This document shows positions 2,215 through 6,003 of a DNA stretch of 6,170 bases, one piece after another (position 1 is the stretch's first letter; each line of letters begins with the position of its first letter). The translations under genes were made by a program, and so were the position numbers. The notes beneath the pieces were generated by a model that did no database searches, was not told the DNA's origin, and saw only the letters and a list, made by a program, of their open reading frames with translations. The stretch covers positions 1 through 6,170 of the forward strand of contig DAOVMD010000201.1 in NCBI GenBank assembly GCA_030630935.1, written 5' to 3'. Source of the stretch: Candidatus Mcinerneyibacteriota bacterium. GTDB lineage: Bacteria > AUK180 > JAQVHJ01.

Positions 2215-2259
2215 GGTGCCGGTCCTTTACTTTTTACTTTTTTTATTTTAATTTTCCAG

Positions 2260-2277
2260 TTCGGGTTCGGGTTCGGG
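2260..2277 (+). repeat. Microsatellite (TTCGGG)x3
   Basis: Three exact tandem hexamers TTCGGG, followed by degenerate GTTTGTGTTTGAG. A similar three-copy hexamer of different sequence lies at 2474. Confidence 0.9.
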
Positions 2278-2306
2278 TTTGTGTTTGAGACATTATTTGT
2301 AAGACA

Positions 2307-2322
2307 CTCCTGTTTACAGGAG
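2307..2322. repeat. Perfect inverted repeat, 7-bp stem
   Basis: CTCCTGT (2307-2313) pairs with ACAGGAG (2316-2322), or as a 6-bp stem with a TTTA loop. It is the first of the hairpins between the lipoprotein gene and the candidate RNA. No T-run follows on either strand, so it is not a terminator. Confidence 0.8.
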
Positions 2323-2358
2323 CAAACTCGAACTGATTAATCAAAATGAAGTTAAGAC

Positions 2359-2473: not shown

Positions 2474-2493
2474 AGTAAGAGTAAGAGTAAGAG
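2474..2493 (+). repeat. Microsatellite (AGTAAG)x3
   Basis: Three tandem AGTAAG hexamers plus AG. A related CTTACTTCTTACT segment on the opposite strand lies near 2570. Confidence 0.9.
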
Positions 2494-2504
2494 ACGTTTG
2501 AGAT

Positions 2505-2527
2505 AAAAAACTCCCCGATTAGGGGAG
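2505..2527 (-). terminator. Rho-independent terminator, minus strand
   Basis: On the minus strand CTCCCC (2527-2522), loop TAATC and GGGGAG (2516-2511) are followed directly by six T (2510-2505). This is the standard shape: a GC-only core stem, a 5-nt loop and a U tract. No minus-strand protein gene lies upstream, so it would end a non-coding transcript. Confidence 0.65.
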
Positions 2528-2589
2528 CTCCCATGAACCACTAAAAAACGGGTTCAGGACTAAAGAACTCTTACTTCTTACTCGAACTG

Positions 2590-2608
2590 AAGTTTCCGGA
2601 GGAAACTT
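2590..2608. repeat. Perfect 8-bp hairpin
   Basis: AAGTTTCC (2590-2597) pairs with GGAAACTT (2601-2608) over the loop GGA. The arm GAGGAAACTTT also occurs at 2390-2400 without its partner arm. Confidence 0.8.
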
Positions 2609-2613
2609 TGAAG

Positions 2614-2646
2614 TATCCCGGAGAATATTGGGTATTCTCCGGGATA
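2614..2646. repeat. Perfect 14-bp hairpin
   Basis: TATCCCGGAGAATA (2614-2627) is perfectly complementary to TATTCTCCGGGATA (2633-2646), with a TTGGG loop. There is no T-run next to it on either strand. It is the strongest structure inside the candidate RNA. Confidence 0.9.
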
Positions 2647-2679
2647 AAAGAGGGTATCTCGTGATGAGATGTATATGCC

Positions 2680-2706
2680 TATATCCTATCAGGAAGATAG
2701 GATATA
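2680..2706. repeat. Perfect 11-bp hairpin
   Basis: TATATCCTATC (2680-2690) and GATAGGATATA (2696-2706) flank the loop AGGAA. The sequence is unrelated to the 14-bp hairpin 34 bp away. Confidence 0.9.
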
Positions 2707-2802
2707 AGAATAAAAAAAATTTGTCTTAGGAATATATTTAAAAGAACCAGCCAGGTTTTCGCACTTCCAGCGTCATTCTGAAAATCCTACTTATCTAATA
2801 GT

Positions 2803-2831
2803 ATATTAGCATAAAAATGTTAAAAAGTCAA
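2803..2831 (-). promoter_or_regulatory. Predicted minus-strand promoter of the candidate RNA
   Basis: On the minus strand TTGACT (2831-2826), a 17-bp spacer, then TAATAT (2808-2803), with TG one base before it (2811-2810), an extended -10. The -35 matches 5 of 6 and the -10 matches 4 of 6. The region is A/T-rich, so a chance match is possible. The same -35 hexamer and spacing serve the lipoprotein gene. Confidence 0.45.
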
Positions 2832-3166: not shown

Positions 3167-3172
3167 ATCTTA

Positions 3173-3232
3173 ACAGGGAACTTAAGAGTAAGGAACCACG
3201 TAGGGTTCCCTATTAAAAAACTAACGAGAACT
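3173..3232 (+). repeat. 60-bp perfect dispersed repeat, copy 2
   Basis: Identical to 1426-1485, offset by 1747 bp, same strand. The hairpin GGAACC (3192-3197) / GGTTCC (3204-3209) is kept. A weaker similarity seems to extend upstream: CAATCGAATG at 3154 versus CAATTGAATG at 1402. Confidence 0.95.
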
Positions 3233-3398: not shown

Positions 3399-3437
3399 GC
3401 TATTTGTTCGATTACCAGAGGTAATCGAACAAATAGC
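3399..3437. repeat. Perfect 18-bp hairpin upstream of the FAD enzyme
   Basis: Arms 3399-3416 and 3420-3437 are perfectly complementary over 18 bp (GCTATTTGTTCGATTACC and its complement) with a 3-nt loop AGA. There is no U-tract on either strand, so it is not a standard terminator. It ends 10 bp before the -35 box of the 3500 gene, where an operator or cruciform could act; that is inference. Confidence 0.9.
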
Positions 3438-3499: not shown

Positions 3500-4615
3500 A
3501 TGGAAAAAGTTGACATTACAATAATTGGAGCTGGTGTAGTAGGCCTTTCAATTTCAGAAAAGCTTTCACGTTCCGACAAGGAGATCATACTTCTTGAGAA
3601 GCATGACGGTTTTGGTCGTGAGGCATCTTCACGAAACAGCGAGGTTATTCATACCGGCATATATTATCCAAAAACATCACTCAAGACTCAACTCTGTGTG
3701 GAAGGGAATAAACTTCTTTATGAGCTTTGTGAAGAGAAGGCAATTCCGTATAATAGAGTAGGAAAAATTATAATATCTAATTCGGAAGAAGAGTCCGATC
3801 AACTTCAGCAATTATTGCAGTGTGGAAAAGATAATGGTGTCAATAGGTTAGAAATAATTTCATCGAATGAGATTAAGGAATTAGAGCCCCATGTAAAAGG
3901 AGTATCGGGGTTATATAGTCCTGATTCAGGTATTTTGGATTCGCATAGTTTGATGCATTATTATGAGCAGGAATCGATTCGAAATGGGGTTACAGTTGCT
4001 TATAATTGCGAGGTTATTGGAATTGAAAAATCTATGGAGGGATATATTATAGAGATCTTGGATGCAGATGGTGAGAACTTTAAAATTCTAACAGAGATTT
4101 TAATTAATTCATCAGGTTTAAATTCAGATAAAATTGCGAGTTTATTAGGAATAGATATTGATTCAGTAGGATATCGTCTTCATCCATGTAAGGGTGAATA
4201 TTTCAATATTTCTAATAGACATAAAGGTAAAGTCCGACATTTAATTTATCCTGCCCCGACCAAATTAAGTCTTGGTTTACATGCAGTTGTTGAATTAGAT
4301 GGGAGATTAAAACTTGGTCCCAACGCATTTTATGTAAATGAAATTAATTATGATATAAATTTAGAACATAGGATTGATTTTTTTAAAAGTGCAGAAAAGT
4401 ACTTTGATTTTTTAGAAGAGGATGATTTGCAGCCTGATCAAGCGGGTATAAGAGCAAAGCTTCAGAAGCCAGGAGAAGTTTTCAGAGATTTTATAATAAA
4501 AGAAGAGTCCGACCTTGGATTTCCTGGTTTAATAAACCTTATAGGAATAGAATCACCCGGGCTTACAGCTGCGCCTGCCATTGCCCGGTTTGTCTTTGAA
4601 ATGATTATACATTAG
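3500..4615 (+). CDS. FAD-dependent oxidoreductase, L-2-hydroxyglutarate oxidase (LhgO/L2HGDH) family
   Basis: A 371-residue DAO-superfamily flavoenzyme. The Rossmann FAD-binding loop GAGVVG is at residues 10-15 and the ribose-binding acidic residue Glu33 follows strand two (IILLEKH). Family signatures I recognise are NSEVIHTGIYYP (46-57), LYSPDSGILD (138-147), SSGLNSD (204-210), HPCKGEYF (228-235), IYPAP (249-253) and the C-terminal FAD segment LIGIESPGLTAAPAIA (347-362). Known members oxidise L-2-hydroxyglutarate to 2-oxoglutarate and pass electrons to quinones or other acceptors. Here the substrate is inferred, since related glycerol-3-phosphate-type enzymes share the fold. At 371 residues it is shorter than E. 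coli LhgO (about 420). No signal or membrane segment is seen, so it is a cytoplasmic or peripheral membrane enzyme. ATG 3500 is preceded by GAGG (3486-3489) at a long 10-nt spacing. It stands alone, with no electron-transfer partner adjacent. Confidence 0.88.
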   Translation: MEKVDITIIGAGVVGLSISEKLSRSDKEIILLEKHDGFGREASSRNSEVIHTGIYYPKTSLKTQLCVEGNKLLYELCEEKAIPYNRVGKIIISNSEEESDQLQQLLQCGKDNGVNRLEIISSNEIKELEPHVKGVSGLYSPDSGILDSHSLMHYYEQESIRNGVTVAYNCEVIGIEKSMEGYIIEILDADGENFKILTEILINSSGLNSDKIASLLGIDIDSVGYRLHPCKGEYFNISNRHKGKVRHLIYPAPTKLSLGLHAVVELDGRLKLGPNAFYVNEINYDINLEHRIDFFKSAEKYFDFLEEDDLQPDQAGIRAKLQKPGEVFRDFIIKEESDLGFPGLINLIGIESPGLTAAPAIARFVFEMIIH

Positions 4616-5100: not shown

Positions 5101-6003
5101 TTAGATCCATGTTTCTTCAAGTTCATCTAAGGATAGTTCATTTTTTATATCCCCGATCATAATAATAAAGGCGGTTTTCTGAAAAATCGTCATGAACAAG
5201 GCAATAAATCCTCCGATAAAAATTAGAATAAAGAAGGCTATGATGATTCCGATGATTGGAATAATTATAATACAAGTTACCGGGATCATTATAATAAATC
5301 CTATAGCAATTGCCATAATTGAAAATGCTATTAAGAATATAGTCATTCGCCAAAAGTTACTATGGAAAATCTTGACTCCATTTACCATGGCCTCTGACCA
5401 GGTAGTATTTTCAAAAACAAGTATAGAATTTGCAGACTGTTTATAAAGGAATAAAAAAAAGCTGATTAACATTATAAAAAACATTGCCAGTAAAAAGGTT
5501 ATAATAATCTCAGGAGAAGGCATTTCAGGAACAGATCCGCCCGATCTTATTTTTAATTGGTAGAATTGATTTAATAGATTTAATGCAGTGCCAACGACAA
5601 CAAATGGAAGATTAACAAGTAAACTTCTCAAGAAGAATTTTTTTATATTTCCAATAACTAAGTCAAATAATTCCACCATCGTTTCATTTTTTAAAATATC
5701 TTTTATTGATCCCATTATTCCTGTTCCTGCAGCAGCTGCAAGGAATCCACCCACTAACCCGGTAATTGTAGAGATAATTATAGCGAAAAGAGAGAGTTGA
5801 AAGTTTTGCATTATTTCAGGAAGGTCTTCAATGGAAGATAAGTCATTTGTTATCAGAAAATAGATCAATGACGGTATTCCGAAGATAATCAAATTAATGA
5901 TTCCTATCACGAATATTATTCCTAAATTAATAAAGACCAAAGATAGATTTTTTTTTGTAAAATGAAATGCAATTTTAAAATATTTTGCAATATTATCAAC
6001 CAT
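5101..6003 (-). CDS. Multi-pass membrane protein of unknown function, 300 residues
   Basis: ATG at 6003 follows a perfect AAGGAG (6016-6011) with a 7-nt spacer and a promoter 30 bp upstream; TAA is at 5103-5101. About six membrane segments are visible, near residues 20-50, 70-98, 124-146, 166-187, 218-244 and 246-275, some extremely rich in Ile (IPVTCIIIIPIIGIIIAFFI). Small-residue motifs lie in segment two (GLVGGFLAAAAGTGIMG, 82-98). The hydrophilic loop 151-165 is short and the N and C termini are charged and probably cytoplasmic. There are no transporter or enzyme motifs I can name. The layout (F-x-K-N near the N terminus, then W-SEA-VNG-KIFHSNFWR before the last pair of helices at 202-219) resembles DUF4013/DUF975-like bacterial membrane proteins in shape only. 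It is singly transcribed and converges on the FAD enzyme. The plus-strand frames across it are shadows. Confidence 0.85.
   Translation of the reverse strand: MVDNIAKYFKIAFHFTKKNLSLVFINLGIIFVIGIINLIIFGIPSLIYFLITNDLSSIEDLPEIMQNFQLSLFAIIISTITGLVGGFLAAAAGTGIMGSIKDILKNETMVELFDLVIGNIKKFFLRSLLVNLPFVVVGTALNLLNQFYQLKIRSGGSVPEMPSPEIIITFLLAMFFIMLISFFLFLYKQSANSILVFENTTWSEAMVNGVKIFHSNFWRMTIFLIAFSIMAIAIGFIIMIPVTCIIIIPIIGIIIAFFILIFIGGFIALFMTIFQKTAFIIMIGDIKNELSLDELEETWI

Follow-up and report, generated by a model that had tools for sequence, protein, structure and literature searches.

Does the minus strand between positions 2831 and 2505 of a contig from Candidatus Mcinerneyibacteriota carry the gene of a structured RNA, and how much of the sequence belongs to it? 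The contig, which is analysed here in its entirety (6170 bases, referred to as the window), comes from a fragmented genome of 3.16 Mb (G000). The initial annotation had proposed that a promoter, a series of stems of 11, 5, 14, 8 and 6 bp and a terminator together form a non-coding RNA gene. All five stems are seen in the fold of 2500-2800(-), which has a predicted energy of -98 kcal/mol, where shuffled sequences average -68.6 (z -5.65; none of 100 shuffles folds as well), and the minus strand is indeed without a long reading frame there. The class sample for comparison consists of seven genomes: G000, G001, which belongs to another genus of the same family and is the only other sampled genome of that family, and five members of a second family.

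The region is a composite of two parts of different origin: 2610-2831(-) is unique, and 2474-2609(-) is a copy of a dispersed repeat. When the genome is searched against itself, 2490-2609(-) recurs many times; 2610-2850 has no further match except for a promoter-like stretch. We discuss the unique part first.

Promoter and structure of the unique part

The features of the unique part, all on the minus strand, are as follows.

2803-2831 (-): promoter, read from the sequence, with TTGACT (2831-2826), a 17-nt spacer with an extended -10 (TG), and TAATAT (2808-2803)
2785-2802 (-): conserved 5' block ACTATTAGATAAGTAGGA, 18 nt, within which transcription is predicted to start (about 2796); 0 mismatches between G000 and G001
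2680-2706 (-): hairpin P3, 11 bp (12 model columns), from the fold and from a G001 hairpin at the equivalent position
2656-2670 (-): 5-bp stem ATCTC/GAGAT, from the fold
2639-2654 (-): conserved C/U-rich block CCCTCTTTTATCCCGG, a candidate target-binding segment; 0 mismatches between G000 and G001
2614-2646 (-): hairpin P4, 14 bp, a strong 3' hairpin with no T run, from the fold and the comparison with G001

The promoter lies where it had been annotated, TG extension included. Since the window has 30 sites that match at 9 of 12 promoter positions, with 25.3 expected by chance, such a match is unremarkable taken alone. The homologous locus of G001 (L043), though, has a promoter at the equivalent position, with identical hexamer spacing and the sequence TATGnTAATAT, so that TTGAC-17-TAATAT is common to the two loci; a similar promoter is also found 5' of other genes in the lineage. 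The start block ACTATTAGATAAGTAGGA, searched alone, has one mismatch-free occurrence in G000 and one in G001, at the homologous loci. A stem that would close the RNA by joining the conserved blocks (AAGUAGG with CCUCUU) was considered and rejected, its duplex energy being that of shuffled sequences (p 0.22 and 0.69).

A homologue in a related genus

G001 has one homologue of 2610-2831(-), at L043 905-1125 (contig C229). Both loci have the same order of elements: the start block, a variable part, a hairpin of 11 or 12 bp, the C/U-rich block and a hairpin of 13-14 bp. Both loci share the block CCCTCTTTNATCCCNG, and the two conserved blocks co-occur at a single locus per genome. The alignment of the two loci past the promoter scores better than all 1000 dinucleotide shuffles. 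The two RNAs fold with z scores of -5.75 and -5.70, and a covariance model built from the G001 sequence alone recovers the window with a score of 29 bits (E 1.3e-5, 43 kb searched).

The hairpins have changed to different degrees. The letters of P3 are almost wholly different in G001, where 8 of 12 pairs are altered on both sides, and its position is equal. In the counterpart of P4 (13-14 bp) most pairs are unchanged and three are altered on both sides, which makes P4 the safer of the apparent covariation cases. These are the changes that the initial annotation had proposed to look for in the 11- and 14-bp stems; the 5-bp stem is not kept, only ATCTCA being retained in the G001 alignment. In the model alignment 98.5% of cells pair (about 36-56% after the partner is slid), and 11 of 37 pairs have changed on both sides, in agreement with the folding of the alignment; with two sequences only, and an alignment fitted to structure, these counts are to be read with care. 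Because hairpin is matched to hairpin, "compensatory" pairs arise by construction, and because just two homologues exist, the covariation is indistinguishable from the case of two hairpins having evolved at the same position. A structure that is conserved without coding potential, one criterion for a bacterial trans-acting sRNA, is thus only weakly indicated, since the comparison involves two sequences.

On one reading the locus holds no RNA gene at all, and 2505-2831 is merely where palindromic repeats of the dispersed kind and a promoter-like, AT-rich site have come together by chance. The 3' half is a dispersed repeat, intergenic regions here are rich in repeats, and chance alone often yields promoter-like sites. 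We nevertheless consider this reading improbable, as 2610-2831 is unmatched in its own genome beyond the promoter-like stretch and has a single, ordered homologue in another genus.

A somewhat less improbable, though still unlikely, reading is that a promoter and, just past the start, a transcription-factor site (the ACTATTAGATAAGTAGGA block) have been conserved as the relic of a gene that was lost or displaced; the hairpins would be incidental repeats. The promoter and the first 18 nt are the best-conserved stretch, neither genome has a gene downstream, and each locus has been invaded by repeats. A relic promoter would not, however, account for the second conserved block, which lies 120-130 nt further on, or for the conserved 3' hairpin. 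Nor would it account for the sequence past the start block: with that block left out, the alignment is still better than those of all but 6 among 1000 dinucleotide shuffles.

The distribution of the element appears narrow. Synteny between the two loci was not found; the neighbour in G001, a gene for a sigma-54 regulator, has its best G000 match (76%) on a different contig, where the genes that follow are not the same. Searches of the class by DNA sequence, by model and by pattern return G000 and G001 only, matches in G005 and G006 being rejected as coding or unrelated sequence. The model R2, searched against 386 genomes, finds the same two loci and none in the 384 others. The phages searched contain no member, and one exact pattern gave 0 matches against viral contigs. 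A 33-bp match of the P3 hairpin to a Burkholderia plasmid (E 8e-3) was judged to be chance.

Coding potential, leaders and known RNA families

The conserved blocks are 130 nt apart in the window and 119 nt apart in G001, and the spacings between blocks differ by 11 and 4 nt. No reading frame is common to the conserved parts of the two loci. A protein-coding reading was therefore rejected: the spacing differs by 11 nt, the indels are out of frame, and the frame is not shared.

Promoter, structured 5' region and terminator-like hairpin also form the layout of a cis-regulatory element, such as a 5' leader or a riboswitch-like element for a downstream message. Neither genome, however, has a gene directly downstream of the RNA: the window has no sense open reading frame before the convergent genes, and the next gene in G001 is about 1.1 kb away, behind tandem repeats. 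Nor does Rfam give a match above threshold, and we regard a leader as very unlikely.

The initial annotation could not match the RNA to a known family, and the covariance-model search bears this out: among 4227 Rfam models none matches the window or L043 at gathering score, and the best sub-threshold matches lie elsewhere or are due to chance. A divergent copy of a housekeeping RNA such as 6S RNA is the least probable alternative, and it would be most surprising. The size of about 190 nt and the stand-alone position would suit 6S RNA, and the letters of the 5' end, GUAGGAUUU, resemble the 5' part of the 6S RNA of G000. But the window has no match to 6S (RF00013), the proper 6S RNA of this genome is at C433:7660-7835 (64.1 bits, cut-off 46.4), and the fold has no single long hairpin bearing a central bubble; the second locus in G001 largely refutes this alternative. 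At C433:7291-7835 (L054, L124) the 6S RNA follows shortly downstream of a short gene, which we take from its sequence to be zapA-like. An arrangement of zapA followed by 6S is familiar from proteobacteria.

The preferred reading is that the locus contains a small, folded, non-messenger RNA, which is the most likely because the related genus has the same promoter, start and folding pattern. Judged from the sequence comparison, a real structured non-coding RNA is probably present at the locus, and with somewhat less confidence we suggest that this bacterial family has a small RNA gene, structured and stand-alone, at 2797 to about 2614(-). The candidate RNA is of a known kind and forms a new orphan family, outside every family tested.

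A dispersed repeat behind the candidate RNA

The modules of the repeat in the window are the following.

2474-2609 (-): one copy of a modular palindromic repeat, with an 8-bp hairpin, an arm, a 36-nt optional insert, a terminator-like hairpin and an arm
2590-2608 (-): 8-bp hairpin AAGTTTCC-TCC-GGAAACTT, the 5' module of the repeat, from the comparison of copies
2530-2565 (-): optional insert module that only some copies have, with a hairpin of its own (CCTGAACC/GGTTCATGG)
2505-2529 (-): terminator-like hairpin CTCCCC/GGGGAG followed by TTTTTT, the core module
2257-2335 (-): second, diverged copy in the same orientation, with the core hairpin GCTCCTGTAAACAGGAGT, from the sequence

The general layout has the 8-bp hairpin, which reads TTGTTTGC/GCAAACAA elsewhere, as its 5' module. 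The arm CAGTTCGAGTAAGAAGTAAGAGTT comes next, followed by the core GCTCCCCTAATCGGGGAGTTTTTTATCTCAAACGTCTC and by CTTACTC..TTACTG, an arm that complements CAGTTCGAGTAAGAAGTAAGAGTT. A number of copies, that of the window included, hold the 36-nt insert, and some hold CCCCAAAACCACGTAGGATTTTGGG. The consensus is found at about 40 places in G000 and gives 18 matches in G001, with none in the five other class members. Copies are mostly outside reading frames of at least 90 aa (24 of 26). The stem letters of the core covary between copies (CTCCCC/GGGGAG, CTCCTG/CAGGAG), and at least 5 T of 8 are kept in 19 of the 22 copies read. The sequence 2474-2609 is thus a small interspersed palindromic repeat (BOX/MITE-like): dispersed, intergenic, with foldable arms and modular variation.

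The GC stem and six T described in the initial annotation are present at 2529-2505. They fold at about -14 kcal/mol, and the stem reaches 9 bp through G-U and A-U pairs. This hairpin is absent from the list of an automatic scan, which probably skipped it because the stem extension runs into the T tract. Since 2474-2609(-) is a copy of the dispersed repeat, both this terminator and the 8-bp stem of the annotation are modules of the repeat. The claim that the RNA has its own terminator is thus not upheld: the T-run hairpin belongs to a repeat of about 40 copies that was not found at the G001 locus, and a T run is absent after the 3' hairpin in both genomes. An sRNA gene would be expected to end in an intrinsic terminator; here P4 has no T run, and the hairpin that has one is the repeat's. 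What is retained of the proposed minus-strand RNA is 2610-2797, for which the promoter, blocks and hairpin order of G001 argue; the terminator and the 8-bp stem fall outside the conserved unit. Promoter and stems thus persist together in the relative, and the terminator does not.

The repeat adjoins P4 directly in G000, and a different, tandem repeat stands behind the RNA in G001. Transcription would start near 2796, from a promoter of the lineage's own type, and the transcript would pass the 14-bp hairpin P4 and stop at the repeat hairpin at 2505, so that the 3' end in G000 is most likely supplied by the repeat directly after P4. In more general terms, we tentatively propose that a structured regulatory RNA confined to one family may owe the end of its transcript to a dispersed repeat, which bears a terminator and came to lie directly behind the gene. 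That the repeats serve as dedicated gene terminators was rejected: among 26 copies there is no orientation preference, the upstream gene being co-oriented in 9 cases and opposed in 10.

Other repeats were observed nearby. Directly 3' of the homologous RNA in G001, at L043 1130-1555, a unit of about 138 nt (GGAAGTTAATGGGACAC...TGTCCCAAGTCC) with inverted ends (TGGGACA/TGTCCCA) occurs three times in tandem. In the window, 1420-1485 and 3167-3232 are two 66-nt copies, 97% alike, that contain GGAACCACGTAGGGTTCC and match the Rfam PreQ1 model below threshold (21.7 bits against 39); their CCACGTAGG loop is also found inside an optional insert, CCCCAAAACCACGTAGGATTTTGGG, of the dispersed repeat. In 1140-1325 a unit of about 42 nt that includes GCCACGAAGACACGAAAGGCACGAAG is repeated imperfectly in tandem, and at 3399-3437 a palindrome of 18 perfectly matched base pairs and a 3-nt loop (GCTATTTGTTCGATTACC/GGTAATCGAACAAATAGC) lies directly upstream of the promoter-like site of a DAO oxidoreductase gene (3500-4615). 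The putative proteins of 478-1062, 1645-2214 and 5101-6003 have no Pfam match; the second resembles a lipoprotein and the third a membrane protein.

Possible function

The C/U-rich block CCCTCTTTTATCCCGG has a single mismatch-free occurrence in each of the two genomes. It is mostly unpaired in the G001 fold and about half paired in the RNA of the window. The RNA may regulate in trans, its exposed CCCUCUUUNAUCCC pairing with purine-rich sites, for example ribosome-binding sites; C-rich motifs of RsaE mediate binding at ribosome-binding sites (PMC6435200). Trans-acting pairing would be the most economical function for the candidate RNA, and a regulator that works through its C/U-rich segment, like the C-rich-motif sRNAs, is possible but doubtful. 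A target search for one simple site type, AAAGAGGG-N4-10-ATG, gave 23 sites against 20 in the control, with no enrichment, and the sites of AAAGAGGG before ATG share no orthologous target gene between G000 and G001. As the simple search gave no support, the probability that we give to the pairing mechanism stays low.

Hardly any regulatory RNAs have been sampled from uncultured lineages, and the candidate would add a small family with a precise, searchable model. A dispersed repeat can mimic a purpose-built terminator, which is a trap for the calling of non-coding RNAs. If the repeat does supply the terminator, such repeats act as ready-made RNA 3' ends and offer a possible route for the origin of these ends.

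Comparison with known systems

The candidate RNA resembles the C-rich-motif sRNAs (RsaE/RoxS and RNAIII type) in its predicted stand-alone, promoter-driven layout, with hairpins predicted on either side of an unpaired C/U-rich segment, for which purine-rich ribosome-binding sites would be possible partners. It differs from them in sequence, has no Rfam similarity, belongs to another phylum and has no targets found. With 6S RNA (RF00013) it shares a similar size and a stand-alone position; unlike 6S, it has no match to the family, and the 6S RNA of G000 is elsewhere.

The repeat can be compared with two elements of Streptococcus pneumoniae. SPRITE is a repeat resembling a Rho-independent terminator, with an 18-bp duplex and a long U tract, and favours the 3' ends of genes (PMC3049150). 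Both repeats are dispersed and give a transcript hairpin followed by a U-rich tract, but that of G000 has a core of 6-9 bp and no orientation preference in 26 copies. BOX elements are dispersed and intergenic, with an optional middle module and long palindromic arms whose transcripts fold (PMC3049150). The repeat of G000 is likewise dispersed, intergenic and modular, with an optional middle module and palindromic arms, although its modules are by inspection unrelated to those of BOX and of SPRITE and it is restricted to one family.
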